64,000 nucleotides of DNA from assembly GCF_016595415.1 (NCBI RefSeq), contig NZ_JAENIO010000020.1:1-64000 (forward strand), given 5' to 3'. Under the pieces are notes generated by a model that made no database searches, was not told the origin of the DNA, and saw only the letters and a list, made by a program, of their open reading frames with translations. The position numbers and the translations under genes are program-made. Below, piece by piece: positions 68 through 39,754 of the stretch (position 1 is its first letter; each line of letters starts with the position of its first letter). This DNA is from Roseibacillus ishigakijimensis (lineage in GTDB: Bacteria; Verrucomicrobiota; Verrucomicrobiia; Verrucomicrobiales; Akkermansiaceae).

Positions 68-426
68 TGGTGGAGGCGAGGGGGATCGAACCCCTGTCCT
101 GGATGCCTTTCACACAAGCGTCTACATGTGTAGCCGGACGTTTGCTGCTTTAAGAAGCGCGAGCCTCATCCGGCCCGTTCGCACTTCCGATGTCCCTGTT
201 GTATCTCACTGCGTCACCCGGAACCCCGGCTCAACAGCCAGCCTGCTAGTTGTCGGCGGCCCTGATAACAGGCATCTCAGGGCGGCCGTTGCCGTCAATT
301 AAGCAGCAAGTGCGAGCTCGTTAGAGTCTGCAATTATGTTTTTGGACGGCTTTTTTAAGAGGCCAACCGACCAACCTCTACATGCAGCCAGCGTTTCCAA
401 CATCCAGTCGAAGCCAAGGCGCCCCC
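68..426 (-). ncRNA. ssrA: Transfer-messenger RNA (tmRNA)
   Basis: One-piece tmRNA of 359 nt that rescues ribosomes stalled on broken mRNAs. The 5' end GGGGGCG (minus, from 426) pairs with CGCCTCC next to the encoded ACCA at 68-71. The T-arm GGGGTTCGATCCCC is present near the 3' end. The tag frame most likely starts at GCA (329-331) and ends at TAA (299-301), giving the 10-residue tag ADSNELALAA. This has the same length and the same ALAA degron end as the E. coli tag ANDENYALAA, so ClpXP would recognise it; a clpX gene lies at 7380. The tag start is inferred by analogy; the 3' half of the tag is certain. Confidence 0.95.
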
Positions 427-7379: not shown

Positions 7380-8651
7380 ATGGCACGCGCATCCAATCTC
7401 ACTATGTGTTCCTTCTGTGGCAAAAGCCATTCGGAAGTCAAAAAGCTCATTGCCGGACCGGGCGTCTACATTTGCAACGAATGTATCGACGTCTGTTCCA
7501 CCATTCTGGAAAAAGAGTTGGTGGGTGAGAGCCGGGAACGCCTGGCCGCTGCTCCCGAGCTGGACCATGCCATCCCCAGCCCGGCGCATCTGATGGCCAA
7601 GCTTGATGAGTTTGTCATTGGCCAGCAACACGCCAAGAAAGTGCTTTCGGTGGCCGTGCACAATCACTACATGCGCCTTTTCCACCAAAATCAGGAGGTG
7701 CCCGAGGAGTTGGCCGAGGTCGAAATCGAGAAATCCAATGTCCTCCTTCTCGGCCCCACGGGCTCGGGAAAGACCTTGCTGGCCCGCACCCTTGCCCGCC
7801 TGCTGGATGTCCCTTTCTGCATTGTCGATTCCACCAATTTGACGGAAGCCGGTTATGTGGGTGAAGATGTCGAAAACATCATCCTCCGTCTGCTGCAGGC
7901 TGCCGACTTCGATGTCGAGAAAGCGGAACAGGGCATCATCTATATCGACGAAATTGATAAGATTGGGCGCAAGACCGAGAACGTGTCCATCACCCGGGAT
8001 GTTTCCGGCGAGGGGGTGCAGCAAGCGCTCTTGAAGATTCTCGAGGGCTCGGTCTGCAATGTCCCGCCCCAAGGGGGCCGCAAACACCCGCAACAAGAAT
8101 ACATTCAGGTCAATACCGAGAAGATTCTCTTTGTCTGCGGAGGAGCCTTTGTGGGTATGGAAGACATCGTCAAGCGGCGCCTGGGCAACAACTTCCTCGG
8201 CTTCCGGGCCCAGAGCGATGACGCCAGCGAGGAGGAGAAAGAAGAGACCATTTTGGAAAAAGTTCAGCCCGAGGACCTGCTCCACTTCGGCCTCATCCCC
8301 GAGTTCATTGGCCGCCTGCCCGTGCATTCCGCGCTCAACAAGCTGAAGCGGGACGACCTGATTCGCATCCTCACCGAGCCCAAGAACGCGCTGGTCAAGC
8401 AGTACACCAAACAACTGGCCTTGCATGATGTGAAGCTGAAGATCACCCCCGATGCCTTGGAAGCCTTTGCGGAAGAAGCGGTCACCCGGGGCACGGGAGC
8501 GCGCGCCCTGCGGAGCATCTTCGAGCGCATCATGCTCGACGTCATGTTCGAGGTCCCCTCCCGCGACGATTTGGAGTCGGTCACCATCACGGCAGAAGTG
8601 GTGAGAGGAGAAAAAGAACCGGTGATGCGGAAAAAGCGCCGCGCGGCTTGA
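7380..8651 (+). CDS. clpX: ATP-dependent Clp protease ATP-binding subunit ClpX
   Basis: 423 aa from [17 protein letters not shown]; the upstream in-frame ATG at 7284 would add an atypical 32-residue leader. The N-terminal zinc-binding domain has CSFC and CNEC. The AAA+ core has Walker A GPTGSGKT (about 125-132), Walker [11 protein letters not shown] (about 187), and a ClpP-docking loop of the IGF type written LGF. The pore region and the ending FVPSRD-type sensor are normal. ClpX unfolds substrates such as ssrA-tagged proteins (tmRNA at 68) for ClpP; clpP is not in this window. The preceding pheA ends 160 bp upstream. Confidence 0.96.
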
Positions 8652-31402: not shown

Positions 31403-31651
31403 TCAGCCCAGACGGTAGACGATCCGGGCTTTGGACGTATCGTAGGGAGACATCTCCATTTTGACCTTGTCGCCAATCACGAGGCGGATGAATCGCTTGC
31501 GCATTTTGCCGGAAATGTGGGCCAGAACTTCGTGGCCGCTGGGCAACTCCACCTTGAACATGGTGCCGGCGAGAACCGCGCTCACGGTTCCCTCAACTTC
31601 CACGGCCTTGGCTTCACCATCCTTGGCCCGGATGTTGTTTTTCTTGTGCAT
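31403..31651 (-). CDS. infA: Translation initiation factor IF-1
   Basis: 82 aa from ATG 31651. The OB fold is [20 protein letters not shown], then [20 protein letters not shown], then [20 protein letters not shown]. It binds the ribosomal A site during initiation. The N-terminus before the fold ([15 protein letters not shown]) is about 10 residues longer than usual. The reading frame stays open upstream; 68-74 nt before the ATG there is a strong AAAGGAG (31719-31725) followed by ATT/ATC codons, while the ATG itself has no SD. Translation from ATC 31714 would add an Arg/Gly-rich arm. A promoter candidate is TTGTCA, 17 nt, CATAGT upstream. Confidence 0.85.
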
Positions 31652-31931
31652 AGGGCGACGGCCCCGGCCTCCACGGCCACGGCCTCCAGCTCGATTTCTT
31701 GGCGGTCCTGCGATAATTCTCCTTTGGTTAGTTGATTGTTGCACGACGAAAAGTCGCGCGGCTTCACTATGGCCCTGATATACCCAGTTGACAATTGGAA
31801 AATTTGCGGAATGACGTTTTCGCTTTTCCTTTGGCGGGTATTCTCCCTCCCCCTGTTTCCTCGCGGCAGGCGGCAAAAAGTGCCGACTCCGTCTCACGAA
31901 GAAAGCGCAATCGGTGACTGGAGCGAGCCAG

Positions 31932-32372
31932 CTAGAGGTTCACTTCCCCCATCGGCTTGGAGGCTTCTCTCTCGCGACTGGCGGCATGGAGGAGGGCGGC
32001 CAATCCGGCCCAGAAGAGGGCAACCAGTTGAACGAGTGGATTCCACCACCACGACCAGAGAGCGAGCACCGGGCACGCCATCGCTGCGAGAACGAGAGAA
32101 CTGAGGAGGAGAAGCAGCCGCCGCCCCAGCCCGGGAGTTCCCTCAACGGCGAGAACCACTGCCGAAGTCACCACGACGAGAGCGAGCAATGACCAGGGAG
32201 AAGCGGGGGAAACCTCCCTCAGCGCCGGAAATCCCCGGGCTTCGAATCCTCCCCGCAGCCAGTCTCCAAACGAGTCCCCCGCCCCCAGAAGGAGGCAGAC
32301 GAGCCCAACCACCAGTCCCATCCCGGTGGCCAGCCAAGGGGTTGGCGAGGTCAGCAAATTGTCGTTCTTCAT
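31932..32372 (-). CDS. Membrane protein coupled to the ClpX-like gene
   Basis: 146 aa. About four membrane helices (about 13-31, 60-78, 83-100, 104-130, all hydrophobic with Leu/Val/Trp). Not recognised. Its ATG overlaps the stop of the ClpX-like gene in an ATGA, so translation is likely coupled and the two products should act together or at similar level. Confidence 0.65.
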
Positions 32373-33997
32373 GCGTCGTCAGCCGAAGGCGAGCCCGCCT
32401 CCGAGTCGCGACGGTAACTCAAAACGACCATTTCACTCAAGAATTTGTCGGGATCGGCGACCGCTTCGGGAGTGAGTTCAAAATCCTTCCGCCCGGTGTT
32501 TTTCTCGATCAACTTGAGCCCGAATTGGTAATCCTTAAAGCGATCACGGCAAACCTGCAGCACACTGCGGGCTTGCTCGGCCGCTTTTTCGGCCAAAGCC
32601 ACCACCGCCTGGTCATTGAGGTGCACATTCACCTCGTGCTTTTCATTGAATTCCCGTTCCCAAATTTCCACTTCGGCACGAGTCTTCTTCACATCAACCC
32701 GTTTTTCCATCGCGGCAAATTCCTTGAGCTTGGCTTCCCGGTTGTCGAGAAGGTCGCGGTTGATGACCAGCTCGCTTACCGCCGTGCCGGGGAGTTCGAA
32801 TTTGAAGTCGCGCAAGAGCCGTTCCAATACTGTCATGAGAGCCCGCGCGCCCGTATCTTCCTTCTCGGCCAACTCGGCCACATAACGAATGGCATCGGGC
32901 TCGAATTTGGCAGCAATGCCATAGGCCGAGAACTCCCGCTCGTATTGGCGCAGGATACTCCCTTCGGAGTCATTGAGAATTTTGACAAAATCATCGGCAG
33001 TGAGCTTCTCGCAAATGACCCGCACGGGAAGACGGCCCACGAACTCGGCCTCAAACCCGAAGTCCACCAAATCGCGGGTTTCCACTTCGCGGAAGGTCTC
33101 CCCATCGAGAACGGCTTCCGAAATCTCGGCCCCAAAGCCCATGTGCCCGCTCTTGAGCCGGGATTGCACCACTTTCTCCAAGCCCGAGAAGGCTCCGCTG
33201 ACGATGAAAAGGATATGGCGGGTATTGATGGTGTCCTTTTGAGAACCACTGCCCGTGCGCATCTGCATCATGGCCTTCATCTGGGCCCGCATGTCCATGG
33301 GATTGGTGAGAGGCACCTCAGTCTCCTCCATCAGCTTCAGCAAAGTGGTCTGGACCCCGCGTCCACTGACGTCGCGGCCACCCGTGCCGGGCTTGGAGGC
33401 CAGTTTGTCGACCTCATCGAGATAGATGATGCCATATTCCGCCAGTTCGACATCGCCATCCGCCTTTTGCACCAACTCGCGCACGAGGTCATCGACATCG
33501 CCGCCAACGTAGCCCGTTTCCGAGAACTTGGTGGCATCGGCCTTCACAAAAGGCACCCCGATGAGGTCGGCAATGTGTTTGACGAGATAGGTTTTTCCCA
33601 CCCCGGTGGGTCCGACAATCATGACGTTCTGCTTCTGATACTCCATCCCGTCGGGGAGTTGTCCGCCATTTTCCTCCTCCAGCGCCCGCATCTGCTTGGC
33701 GTGGTTGTAATGGTCGCAGACCGCGATGGAGAGGGCCTTTTTGGCCTCGTCCTGCCGAATGACGAAGCGGTCGAGGTGGCGCTTCACATCACGGGGCAAG
33801 AGATCGAAGTCGAAAATGGGCTGGGACTCCTTGACCACCGTCTCCGGCTCGCCGTCCTCGGCAGGGGCTTCGGGGGCATTCATGCCTCCCATCTCAAAAC
33901 TGACGTTACCAAACTTGCCGAAAAAGTCCTGAAAGACCTTCTGCAATTCTTCGGGAGTCTTGGGCGGCTTGGGTTCCTGGGGATCGTCCTTGGGCAT
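32369..33997 (-). CDS. ClpX-like AAA+ ATPase without zinc finger
   Basis: 542 aa from ATG 33997, chosen over 34030 because GGAGG lies 9 nt upstream. It lacks the Cys4 finger of ClpX; instead residues 1-60 are Pro/Glu-rich. The AAA+ core has Walker A GPTGVGKT (about 129-136), Walker B YLDEVDKL, and the loop MGFGAE in the position of the ClpP-docking IGF loop. After the lid there is an extra C-terminal part of about 150 residues (about 390-542) with coiled helices, absent from ClpX. It is a paralogue of the true clpX at 7380. The membrane-anchored gene upstream and the membrane protein downstream are on the same strand. Confidence 0.85.
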   Translation of the reverse strand: MPKDDPQEPKPPKTPEELQKVFQDFFGKFGNVSFEMGGMNAPEAPAEDGEPETVVKESQPIFDFDLLPRDVKRHLDRFVIRQDEAKKALSIAVCDHYNHAKQMRALEEENGGQLPDGMEYQKQNVMIVGPTGVGKTYLVKHIADLIGVPFVKADATKFSETGYVGGDVDDLVRELVQKADGDVELAEYGIIYLDEVDKLASKPGTGGRDVSGRGVQTTLLKLMEETEVPLTNPMDMRAQMKAMMQMRTGSGSQKDTINTRHILFIVSGAFSGLEKVVQSRLKSGHMGFGAEISEAVLDGETFREVETRDLVDFGFEAEFVGRLPVRVICEKLTADDFVKILNDSEGSILRQYEREFSAYGIAAKFEPDAIRYVAELAEKEDTGARALMTVLERLLRDFKFELPGTAVSELVINRDLLDNREAKLKEFAAMEKRVDVKKTRAEVEIWEREFNEKHEVNVHLNDQAVVALAEKAAEQARSVLQVCRDRFKDYQFGLKLIEKNTGRKDFELTPEAVADPDKFLSEMVVLSYRRDSEAGSPSADDA

Positions 33998-34051
33998 GGG
34001 GCAGCATCCTCCCGGTGACAAAAAATTCAACCCGGGAATGCAAGCAAACCG

Positions 34052-34465
34052 CTACTCGAGGATGCTGGCGGCCTTCACAAATTGCTCGGCCAAAGTGCGG
34101 CTGGCGGCATCCCGCTCCTCGCGGGTGGAGCGGGGACCTTTGAAAATGACGTGCAAATCCCGTCCTCCCGGGAGTTTGACCAAGGAATCCTCGCGAAAAA
34201 GCTTGAGGGCCTCCTCGTCGCTTTTGACCTGATAAAAGCCTTTCAAATTGTGAGCCTCGATGGTAGGGAGCAGGACTTCGTCCATATCGAGAATCTTGTT
34301 GTAGCGCATCTCCAACATCTCCTTTTCGTCTTTCTCCACGGGCTTGGCGAGGGCGAGGGCCACTCCCCGTTCCTCGATGGCCGTCCATTTTTTCCATCCG
34401 TAGAATCCTACCCCCGCCCCGATGGCGAAGAAGAGGAAGAGAACAAAGGCGATAAATGCTTTCAC
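34052..34465 (-). CDS. Membrane-anchored small protein of unknown function
   Basis: 137 aa, GTG start. A single N-terminal helix (about 3-22, FIAFVLFLFFAIGAGVGFYG) anchors it. The rest is charged, with mixed helices and strands (EERGVALALAKPVEKDEKEM; LPGGRDLHVIFKGP). No family recognised. It ends 54 bp upstream of the ClpX-like start, in the same direction. Confidence 0.6.
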   Translation of the reverse strand: MKAFIAFVLFLFFAIGAGVGFYGWKKWTAIEERGVALALAKPVEKDEKEMLEMRYNKILDMDEVLLPTIEAHNLKGFYQVKSDEEALKLFREDSLVKLPGGRDLHVIFKGPRSTREERDAASRTLAEQFVKAASILE

Positions 34466-37465: not shown

Positions 37466-38482
37466 ATGCGACCTTGGAAAAATTTGTTTCAGAACGCCCC
37501 TTTCGCAATTGGGGCGTTTTTTTTGGTCTTTGTCACCCTGAGCTGCAAAGAAAGCGAGTCCACCGCCGAGTGGGTGGTGAAGCCAGCGGAAGAACAAGTC
37601 GCCCAGGACCCTCCCCCGGAATCACGGCAAAACACGCCGCAAGCCCCGCCCATTCCCCCGTCCTCCGGGCACGAGGTCCGCTTCCTGTCCTACAATTTGG
37701 AAAATTACCTGACCATGCCTCGTGGTGAGGAAGAGCGCCCCAAACCCGAGAAAGAAATCAGCCCCCTTATCGAAATCATCGTCAGCGAGCGTCCCGACGT
37801 CCTCGGAGTTTGCGAGATTGGCAAAGAATCCGATCTGCAGGACTTGCAAGAGCGCTTGGCCGCCGCAGGCCTCTCCCTGCCCTATCACGAACATGCCGGG
37901 GGCTCCGACGACACCCGACACCTCGGCCTTCTCTCGCGCTACCCCATCGTTGCCCGGAACTCCCAGGCCACCCTCGACTACCGGCTCTCCGGCCGCACCT
38001 GGCTCATCAATCGGGGCATTCTCGACGCCACCATCGCGGTCGGCGACCAGCAACTGCGCTTCCTGGGAGCCCACCTCAAGTCCAAGCGCGAGATCGAAGC
38101 CGCCGATCAAGAGCTGATTCGGCTCAATGAAGCCCGCCTCTTGCGCAGTCATGCGGAGGAAATCCTCACCAGGGCCCCGGAGACCCGCCTGCTGGTTTAC
38201 GGCGACTTCAACGACACTATCAATTCCCCCGCCCTGCACACCTTGCGCGGGGAGCCCAAAGAAACAACCACCCACCTGCGGGACTACTATTTCAAGGATT
38301 CCCGGGGCGAACTCTGGACCCACTTCTGGAATTATCAGGACACCTATTCCCGATTCGACTATGTCCTTTATTCAGAGCCCCTCAAGTCTCATTTTTACGG
38401 CAAAGGTTCTTACATCGTCGACCATGAGAACTGGTGGCGGGCCTCCGATCACCGCCCCCTGATGCTCGTCATCACTCTTTAG
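37466..38482 (+). CDS. Endonuclease/exonuclease/phosphatase-fold lipoprotein
   Basis: 338 aa. A signal peptide with lipobox (LSC, Cys27) at 1-27. The EEP fold is seen in VRFLSYNLENYL, VLGVCEIGKESDLQ (metal Glu), RYPIVARNSQ, LLVYGDFNDTINS (Asp/Asn pair) and WWRASDHRPLMLVI (catalytic Asp-His). It could be a nuclease or phosphatase outside the membrane; substrate open. The start is 2 nt after tatA. A strong terminator lies across codons 10-20 (see separate entry). Its end overlaps the convergent permease by 11 bp. Confidence 0.82.
   Translation: MRPWKNLFQNAPFAIGAFFLVFVTLSCKESESTAEWVVKPAEEQVAQDPPPESRQNTPQAPPIPPSSGHEVRFLSYNLENYLTMPRGEEERPKPEKEISPLIEIIVSERPDVLGVCEIGKESDLQDLQERLAAAGLSLPYHEHAGGSDDTRHLGLLSRYPIVARNSQATLDYRLSGRTWLINRGILDATIAVGDQQLRFLGAHLKSKREIEAADQELIRLNEARLLRSHAEEILTRAPETRLLVYGDFNDTINSPALHTLRGEPKETTTHLRDYYFKDSRGELWTHFWNYQDTYSRFDYVLYSEPLKSHFYGKGSYIVDHENWWRASDHRPLMLVITL
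37493..37524 (+). terminator. Strong Rho-independent terminator inside the start of the lipoprotein gene
   Basis: An 8-bp stem AACGCCCC (37493-37500) and GGGGCGTT (37511-37518) with a 10-nt loop, followed by eight T in a row (37517-37524). It lies within codons 10-20 of the frame from 37466 and encodes part of the signal peptide (IGAFFLVFV). It could end the tatA transcript and act as an attenuator for the gene it overlaps. Confidence 0.8.
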
Positions 38483-39578
38483 TCGTCTCGGTGCCGACAG
38501 GTGGCTCAGTTCCCGCCGCCCCCTTGGAGTCCGGTGAGTCCGGTGAGTCCGGTGAGTCCGGTGAGTCCGGTGAGTCCGGCAATTTCGCCGGTAATGCCGG
38601 CGGGGCGGGAGAGAGGGAGGAGGGCACATTCGCAGAAGGGGCCAGGGCCGCCGAGGCCTTGGGGGTGGCATCAGCAAAGGAGGCCACCAGCCCCATTCCC
38701 ACGGCCCCGAGGAAGCCCGCGTAGCCCGTAGTCACCCCGGCCGCCATTCCCACCACAAAAGGGGTGAAAAAGATCAAGCCGAAGACCATCCAGCTGGGCT
38801 TGATTTCGTAGTGGTGGACCACGAGGCGGATGCGGGAACGGGCGATGGCCAGGCCCATCACAGTGTAGCAGTAAAAAACACCGAAAGCATTGCAGTAGAA
38901 GAAAAAGCCCACTTCCCCCTCGCGGGCCGCGCTCGCGGCCACCGTGCCCAGCAAAGAAAGGAGAAAGGACCCGAGGAAAAAGACGAAAACCCCGATACGG
39001 GCCGCCATGCCCGGGAAAGAGGAAGCCCCCAGAGCCCCCGCCGAAATGATGGCCGAGCCCAGCACCACCGATATCGCCAGAGAGATATTCCGCCCCACGT
39101 CCACCCCGCCCATGAAGTAGCGGACAATGACGTAAGGCAACAATGAGGAGAAAATCAGGAGACAGATTCCCCAGATAACGAGGAACTTGCCACCCACAAC
39201 CTGCCAGCGGGTAAGCGGAGTCATCTGCAAGAGCTCATGATTGCCCTCTTCCAGCTCCTGACCCATGAGAACCAGCCCGCCCAAAGGCATGGCGAGAAGA
39301 CATATCAGCCCCACCACTACCCAGAAAGGCCCGGAATACATCTCACCGGGAAAAAAGAGGAGCAAATTGAGGGGACCGGCATAAGCCGTGGATCGCTCGA
39401 TGTCTTCAATCCTCATTTGAAACTCCCACCCCAGGGCCGCAACGACAAAAAAATGAATTCCGGCAAAAATAGACAAGAAATAACCCCGCCGCAGACCTTG
39501 TCGCAACTCCTTGACCAGCATCGGGCCTAAACGCTCGGGCAAATCCCGCGCTTTCCACCAGTCTTTCGTCACCGCCAT
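38472..39578 (-). CDS. ABC-2-type permease-like membrane protein with a repetitive tail
   Basis: 368 aa from MAVTKDWWKARDLPERLGPM. Eight or so membrane helices (about 25-45 to 290), with the region LGPMLVKELRQGLRRGYFLS early and HELLQMTPLTRWQVVGGKFL typical of ABC-2 permeases that have lost recognisable family signatures. The last about 60 residues are Pro/Ala/Ser-rich with six PDS units in a row (DNA repeat at 38527-38580). The ATPase partner is not adjacent on its strand. A longer frame to 39680 is open but lacks support. Confidence 0.7.
   Translation of the reverse strand: MAVTKDWWKARDLPERLGPMLVKELRQGLRRGYFLSIFAGIHFFVVAALGWEFQMRIEDIERSTAYAGPLNLLLFFPGEMYSGPFWVVVGLICLLAMPLGGLVLMGQELEEGNHELLQMTPLTRWQVVGGKFLVIWGICLLIFSSLLPYVIVRYFMGGVDVGRNISLAISVVLGSAIISAGALGASSFPGMAARIGVFVFFLGSFLLSLLGTVAASAAREGEVGFFFYCNAFGVFYCYTVMGLAIARSRIRLVVHHYEIKPSWMVFGLIFFTPFVVGMAAGVTTGYAGFLGAVGMGLVASFADATPKASAALAPSANVPSSLSPAPPALPAKLPDSPDSPDSPDSPDSPDSKGAAGTEPPVGTETTKE
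38527..38580. repeat. 9-bp tandem repeat, six units
   Basis: GAGTCCGGT is repeated without gaps six times (the last unit ends in C). On the minus strand it encodes Pro-Asp-Ser repeats inside the permease tail. Because the unit is a multiple of 3, changes in copy number keep the frame. Confidence 0.9.
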
Positions 39579-39754
39579 CACCAAAAGCCTAATGACTTCC
39601 CTCCCCAGGGAAAGCGGGAAAAAGCTTCTTGGGAAAGTCGCCGCCGGACGCAGTCTCCGAGAAACACAATTGCAAAACAAGACCCCTTCCCTGCACGACA
39701 GATTTTTTTTGCTTCGCTCTTCTTTCCCGGCGGGAAATAGCCCACACTCCGCCC

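Follow-up and report, generated by a model that had tools for sequence, protein, structure and literature searches.

ClpX takes adaptors and tagged substrates through its zinc-binding domain and its RKH loop, and much of what is known about its choice of substrates concerns this domain and the loops at the pore entrance. Here we describe a ClpX relative, named ClpX2 (our own label), that is encoded on the minus strand at positions 32369-33997 of the first 64,000 nucleotides of contig NZ_JAENIO010000020.1 of Roseibacillus ishigakijimensis (Verrucomicrobiota); this whole stretch is referred to below as the window. The gene is preceded by GGAGG and encodes 542 residues from its ATG. ClpX2 shares with the ClpX of PDB entries 3hws, 6wrf and 9ndj the AAA+ core, the pore-1 motif GYVG, the sensor-2 motif GAR, the GF motif and the small domain, but it has neither the zinc-binding domain nor the RKH loop and carries an extra, second small domain. 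ClpX2 should work like ClpX, yet it departs from it in four features that were tested: the zinc finger, the RKH loop, the curated score cut-offs and the place in the tree. With HslU, ClpX2 shares the fold (Z 27.8-29.3), but it scores 199.5 of the 362.45 bits set as the TIGR00390 cut-off, and HslU is not known to have a GF loop.

A second, phylum-level group of Clp unfoldases found by sequence has a precedent in ClpI of Actinomycetota, whose subtypes are reported to be split by the presence or absence of LGF (PMC10149685). ClpI, as described there, is of the double-ring ClpB/ClpC type, whereas ClpX2 is of the ClpX type with a duplicated lid. Neither a ClpX paralogue of Verrucomicrobiota nor a ClpX with two small domains was described among the literature matches listed, a scope that excluded subscription papers and preprints. 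With the finger and the RKH loop gone, the ClpP motif kept and the lid doubled, the ClpX2 lineage allows substrate choice by AAA+ unfoldases to be studied in a natural variant. It would also mean that many Verrucomicrobiota possess a further unfoldase, one that has apparently received no study so far, together with a membrane partner that can be tested.

The ClpX2 family and its motifs

A Pfam scan of the ATPase gave matches to AAA_2 (E 1e-27) and ClpB_D2-small (E 2e-5) and none to zf-C4_ClpX, a domain that the same scan detected in the true ClpX of the window (7380-8651, ATG at 7380). An earlier note, made from the sequence without database searches, had described a ClpX-like ATPase devoid of the Cys4 finger in the presence of a true clpX at 7380, and both statements are borne out. 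The two proteins share 38% identity across 344 aligned positions and were the only matches when the genome was searched with the ATPase as query. Moreover, the ATPase fell under both NCBIfam clpX cut-offs, with 339 of 359 bits for NF003745 and 303.1 of 370.75 bits for TIGR00382.

Orthologues of ClpX2 were found in 39 of the 58 near genomes, the genome under study included (that of G001 is 87% identical, and those of G030, G047 and G052 are cut by contig ends), and, by hand count, in 76 of 288 genomes sampled from Verrucomicrobiota, again including this one. The latter count, which takes in the fragments of G052 and G238 and the short form of G221, required an E value no higher than 1e-81, the remaining genomes giving matches no stronger than 1.4e-77, the level reached by true ClpX. 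A collection scan matched at least 554 relatives, of which the best 80 were kept as a set of loci, a selection that favours near relatives. Four of the 80 are assigned to phyla other than Verrucomicrobiota, namely L096 and L125 to Pseudomonadota, L110 to Planctomycetota and L133 to Spirochaetota; each of them comes from a metagenome bin labelled no further than phylum, and these labels are unconfirmed.

A maximum-likelihood tree was built with 44 rows, corresponding to 23 of the 56 long ClpX2 proteins, two short forms, 18 ClpX and one HslU. The 18 ClpX rows, including that of E. coli, were placed on one branch (99/99) and the 25 ClpX2 rows on another (99/99), with 1.57 and 1.58 changes per column along the two branches that lead to these families. 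Within the ClpX2 clade, the five members of the family to which the window protein belongs (L001, L005, L009, L019 and L026) clustered together (95/88). The separate 99/99 branches and the scores below the ClpX cut-offs indicate that ClpX2 is not a recent copy of ClpX. Judged by sequence, ClpX2 is a distinct and old ClpX-like family that stands beside normal ClpX in many Verrucomicrobiota. The missing zinc finger and the patchy presence in 39 of 58 genomes could also be expected of a degenerate or recently duplicated ClpX with no distinct role; nevertheless, this explanation is barely credible, because it is already contradicted by the separate old clade with its two long branches and by the strict conservation of the ATPase and docking motifs.

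This conservation was assessed in 56 ClpX2 proteins read from the loci, with 16 true ClpX as controls, taken from genomes covered by the near-genome and phylum searches. The ClpX2 alignment comprised 49 rows; the seven orthologues omitted from it (L012, L018, L023, L034, L038, L052 and L053) were checked separately for the GF motif. Strict conservation was found for the ATPase motifs that we take to be Walker, sensor and pore-1. GYVG is present at pore-1 in 55 of 56 proteins and is followed by G or A in 48 of 56, the corresponding residue being E in E. coli-type ClpX. The four-cysteine pattern was not found within the first 120 residues of any of the 56 ClpX2 proteins, as compared with 15 of the 16 controls, and the RKH string was likewise found in none of the 56 but in all 16 controls. 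A longer and different segment (33230-33313, minus strand, limits approximate, from the alignment to ClpX) replaces the RKH loop. In the place of the zinc-binding domain there are 63 N-terminal residues (33809-33997, minus strand), for which the AlphaFold2 model gives a short conserved helix at residues 15-28 and low confidence elsewhere; P.PEE.QK is present in the consensus of this region in the 49-row alignment.

Unlike the lost elements, the ClpP-docking (IGF-type) motif is kept. It reads MGF in the window (residues 286-288; 33134-33142, minus strand), within the MGFGAE that the earlier note had located, correctly according to the alignment, where ClpX has its ClpP loop. All 56 ClpX2 proteins have [ILMV]GF at this position, with I, M, L or V as residue 286 and with G287 and F288 invariant, while the flanking residues are variable across the 49 rows. 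The description of a zinc-finger-less ClpX relative with a strictly conserved ClpP-docking motif thus holds for the family as a whole. The functions of the IGF, pore and RKH loops of ClpX are described in PMC9035409.

The genomic complement of peptidases was also surveyed. ClpP is encoded in all 58 near genomes, the genome under study included, whereas HslV was found in none of the 58 by a search that was positive in 6 of 14 control genomes; hence, of these two partner peptidases, ClpP is the only one present, and an HslUV-type partnership for ClpX2 was rejected. A dedicated second ClpP was considered as well and set aside: extra ClpP matches were mostly weak (E 1e-15 to 1e-31) and occurred alike with and without ClpX2. 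A strong second copy was found in G050 only, and in the genome under study a single strong ClpP was accompanied by one weak match.

The second small domain and the proposed action of ClpX2

The earlier note had ascribed about 150 extra C-terminal residues to the ATPase. The extra part is real but shorter, given that the alignment to ClpX stops near residue 425-432 and leaves about 110-115 residues, and its nature as a duplicated domain had been missed. The first small (lid) domain, which bears the sensor-2 GAR, covers approximately residues 334-430 (32708-32998, minus strand) and is followed by a second at approximately 436-534 (32396-32692, minus strand). In hhalign comparisons, residues 440-530 matched the first small domain (333-425) at 98.8% (E 1.2e-16), with four control segments below 1%, and the second small domain matched that of true ClpX at 93.7% (E 1.9e-7), the three segments used as controls staying below 1%. 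The AlphaFold2 model of the ATPase, with a mean pLDDT of 78.7 and values of 85-93 over residues 441-530 in blocks of ten, displays at residues 334-430 a succession of helices and strands that recurs at 436-534. From these profile alignments and the predicted model, the C-terminal extension of about 110 residues in ClpX2 is a second AAA+ small domain, i.e., a duplicated lid.

When the model was compared with PDB, the seven best rows were ClpX (Z 34.1-36.8 over 298-349 residues; the top row is an integrative model and the other six are crystal structures), with HslU at the Z values given above. These matches span approximately residues 63-424 and stop with the first small domain, so that the structure search is silent on the second one, whose identity relies on hhalign and the model. 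According to the alignment, TGAR, the sensor-2 motif, is absent from the second small domain, which is therefore unlikely to serve an ATP site. We conjecture that it could be an added binding surface instead of a second ATPase lid. The duplication offers a natural case for learning what a lid can do other than close the ATP site.

Two short forms of ClpX2, L159 and L160, have no second small domain and fall within the ClpX2 clade; the GF motif is present in L160 and absent from L159. Their position in the tree points to a loss of the second small domain, with L160 at an unresolved fork. L159 is the second, short ClpX2 of genome G179, which has a long form too, and is perhaps a ClpP-independent remodeller.

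The interpretation that we favour, and that we hold to be somewhat more probable than improbable as far as the ATPase without the membrane part is concerned, is that ClpX2 is an unfoldase coupled to ClpP that selects substrates of its own. By analogy with established ClpX biology, from which we infer ATPase activity, unfolding and ClpP docking, ClpX2 would be an active hexameric unfoldase that unfolds and threads proteins. It would dock ClpP via the IGF-type loop and degrade, or at times only remodel, a protein set of its own. Since it has no zinc-binding domain and no RKH loop, ClpX2 must select these proteins otherwise than ClpX does, and this task might be shared by its N-terminal helix, the new segment at the entrance of the pore and the duplicated lid. 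Some observations weigh against this proposal. The docking to ClpP is a prediction read from the motif, and the motif itself is an imperfect marker, as the [ILMV]GF string was found in 15 of the 16 control ClpX, L152 being the exception. In addition, the absence of the GF motif in L159 suggests that some ClpX2 members may not use ClpP.

The membrane protein gene and the neighbourhood of ClpX2

A gene for a putative four-helix membrane protein (31932-32372, minus strand, 146 residues from an ATG start) lies directly 3' of the ATPase gene, its ATG overlapping the ATPase stop in ATGA. Four hydrophobic stretches were detected in the protein by the Kyte-Doolittle scan that was used for transmembrane helices throughout. 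The earlier note had reported this overlap, together with a single-helix open reading frame (ORF) 54 bp upstream of the ATPase gene, and had proposed that the ATPase is recruited to membrane partners; the positions and descriptions given for the three minus-strand genes proved accurate, and so did the overlap and the 54-bp gap. The conservation of the neighbourhood was examined in 81 loci, i.e., the 80 relatives and the window, 72 of which extend 500 bp or more beyond the end of the ATPase gene. The ORFs were called by a heuristic of our own, not by a gene finder, and the clustering, by single linkage, may have joined some families and divided others.

Using two hidden Markov models (HMMs), the membrane gene was recognised 3' of ClpX2 on the same strand in 46 of the 72 loci, showing that ClpX2 often sits in a conserved neighbourhood; no further match to the HMMs was found among the 5089 ORFs of at least 70 residues in the flanks of the 80 relatives and the window. 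Because the HMMs were built from genes beside ClpX2 (37 of the 46, the other 9 having played no part in it), their sensitivity there is partly by construction. A count free of HMMs gave a same-strand next gene with at least two hydrophobic stretches in 48 of 73 loci, and in a second set of loci, some from the same genomes, the membrane gene followed ClpX2 in 29 of 55. Adjacency was found in 29 of the 33 near genomes that have both genes.

Longer relatives give an indication of what this membrane protein may be. Indeed, 29 of the 48 membrane proteins found after ClpX2 in relatives have at least 360 residues. Ten short proteins of the window type matched the long family in hhalign at 98.6% (E 1e-15), and the window protein was matched by the long-family HMM at E 8e-9. 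The predicted model of the long form from L075 (mean pLDDT 90.8) superimposed on the class III cyclases CyaB (3r5g) and Cya2 (2w01) with Z 23.5 and a root-mean-square deviation (rmsd) of 2.0 over 189 and 192 residues, respectively; the top structural row was 6fht, with Z 25.9 and rmsd 6.0 over 296. A profile of 31 long forms retrieved CyaB at E 7e-25, and PF00211 was matched by 11 of the 31 (E up to 0.01). While the fold is common to class III nucleotidyl cyclases, the catalytic set of Asp, Asp and Asn was fully intact in none of the 31 long forms, at positions that were placed by alignment to CyaB and that we presume to be the catalytic ones. As judged from sequence and model, the long relatives end in a class III cyclase fold devoid of the catalytic set, and hence in a pseudocyclase. 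The window protein has no cyclase domain, its 146-residue sequence stopping shortly after the fourth helix, and we would call it the membrane part alone of the pseudocyclase family, a candidate stump. The overlapping gene of the earlier note is thus real, although its membership in this family had been overlooked. A works-like parallel, with no claim of homology, is found in Caulobacter, where the degenerate GGDEF protein PopA directs CtrA to the pole for degradation by ClpXP, as reported in PMC12564702; PopA is a GGDEF protein and not a class III cyclase, and the ClpX it uses is the ordinary one.

Conjecturally, the product of the membrane gene, whose translation would follow that of ClpX2, could be a receptor or localising factor for part of the work of ClpX2, and the pseudocyclase domain of the long forms could sense a nucleotide. 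Among the 69 loci that reach 1500 bp or more upstream of ClpX2, 21 have a same-strand Ser/Thr kinase gene at position -1 or -2, and Pkinase was confirmed in the four kinases tested. An extended scheme can be drawn in which ClpXP is tethered to the membrane, substrates are captured there by a nucleotide-sensing pseudocyclase receptor under the control of the neighbouring Ser/Thr kinase, and they are passed on to a ClpX in which receptors dock on the duplicated lid in lieu of the zinc finger; we regard this scheme as rather unlikely. The kinases directly upstream of ClpX2 in L079, L115, L120 and L137, and thus in part of the phylum, open with two CxxC pairs, likely a zinc ribbon as judged by eye; the window has no such gene at this position.

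Several counts loosen the tie between ClpX2 and the membrane gene. No recognised membrane gene was found beside ClpX2 in 26 of the 72 loci or in 27 of 56 of the second set, where one locus was too short to judge. Its place was taken by recR, by other genes or by ubiE (named by eye). The loci counted as negative include L016, where the ORF after ClpX2 encodes 170 residues with four hydrophobic stretches, has a 4-base overlap and was missed by the HMMs. The membrane gene was also found in 11 of the 19 near genomes without ClpX2, in 10 of them at E <1e-10 and in G037 at 4e-4. The association is weak, with the membrane gene in 33 of 39 genomes with ClpX2 and 11 of 19 without it (Fisher p 0.047, uncorrected for kinship). 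Fourteen genomes in which the membrane gene lies away from ClpX2 were examined (L165-L178), namely 10 of the 11 without ClpX2 and 4 with ClpX2 elsewhere. In all 14, the membrane gene, short or long, is located directly upstream of recR (13 pairs were established by script and that of L167 from the reading frames). An unexplained membrane protein tied to the recombination gene recR is an observation in its own right. The presence of the membrane gene in 11 of 19 genomes without ClpX2, and upstream of recR where examined, makes the link between ClpX2 and the membrane gene suggestive, not proven. Recruitment to membrane partners, as proposed in the earlier note, is therefore favoured by the adjacency in 29 of 33 genomes and weakened by the occurrence of the membrane gene, and of its pairing with recR, apart from the ATPase.

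The recR gene itself raises the question of whether ClpX2 could act with RecR as a ClpP-independent remodeller, much as ClpX alone remodels transposase complexes. Indeed, of the 66 loci that reach 2500 bp or more downstream of ClpX2, 34 have recR at positions +1 to +3. It is also found near ClpX2 in loci that have no membrane gene, namely L082, L105 and L115 as well as L020, L050 and L055, in the last three of which the RecR of the genome under study has matches at 50-55% identity just after ClpX2. Nevertheless, we consider a role of this kind distinctly improbable. The GF motif, which is invariant, is required for work with ClpP but dispensable for mere remodelling, and the recR of this genome is on a different contig, beside rpoD and dnaG (all three confirmed by NCBIfam). 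Furthermore, recR stays paired with the membrane gene where ClpX2 is absent, so that its link may be to the membrane gene only.

An alternative with more in its favour, possible although we give it less than an even chance, is that the arrangement of kinase, ClpX2, membrane protein, recR and a lipA-like gene reflects nothing but an old chromosomal order with no functional link, ClpX2 being a soluble, general second unfoldase. This explanation overlaps with the core of the interpretation we favour and denies only its membrane part. In agreement with it, the pairs break in every way: the membrane gene is found with recR and no ClpX2, with ClpX2 and no recR just after (12 of 44 loci), and ClpX2 occurs without either; besides, recR is a housekeeping gene, as is lipA (named by eye). 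What speaks for a functional link instead are the overlapping starts, i.e., the ATGA of the window and the 4-base overlap of ClpX2 and the membrane gene in three congeners (L003-L005), and the retention of the short membrane gene beside ClpX2 in two groups, the genus of the window and a group formed by L094, L098, L099, L101 and L116 (mostly labelled Verrucomicrobiaceae), in which no recR follows and the membrane protein carries no cyclase domain.

Other features of the window and the control loci

The single-helix ORF upstream of the ATPase gene (34052-34465, minus strand, 137 residues from a GTG start, with one hydrophobic helix) had been counted as a member of the cluster by the earlier note, a status that is not sustained. 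Its homologues in three genomes of the same genus lie on contigs other than that of the ATPase, and among the 5089 flanking ORFs it matched only itself, with no homologue in the flanks of the 80 relatives; no Pfam or NCBIfam match was obtained at E up to 1. It was therefore rejected as a partner of ClpX2. On the other side, the next gene after the membrane gene encodes IF-1 (infA; 31403-31897, minus strand; NCBIfam match). As some 95 residues precede the IF-1 match in this ORF, the true start of infA is probably internal.

A phage origin of the ATPase is not supported: 162 phage records matched it, none over more than 80% of its length and all with less than 60% identity. A defence role was also considered. 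PADLOC returned a weak, partial AAA match to mad8 for the ATPase (E 4e-4) and none for the other two proteins (P0002 and P0003); elsewhere, it matched the long membrane protein of L075 to PycC (E 7e-9) and, strongly, the kinase of L137 to PD-T4-6 (E 9e-83). We read these matches at the level of domains (PD-T4-6 being kinase-type).

A C-terminal -AA was found in 13 of the 16 control true ClpX (L144-L158 and L161), and the true ClpX of the window ends in KKRRAA. The tag encoded by the tmRNA of the window (68-426, minus strand), ADSNELALAA, likewise ends in -AA. By its terminal residues, true ClpX may bear a built-in degradation tag and so keep its abundance in check. Finally, a run of PDS-type tripeptide repeats is encoded at approximately 38510-38590, towards the C-terminal end of an ORF for a membrane protein (38472-39680, minus strand).

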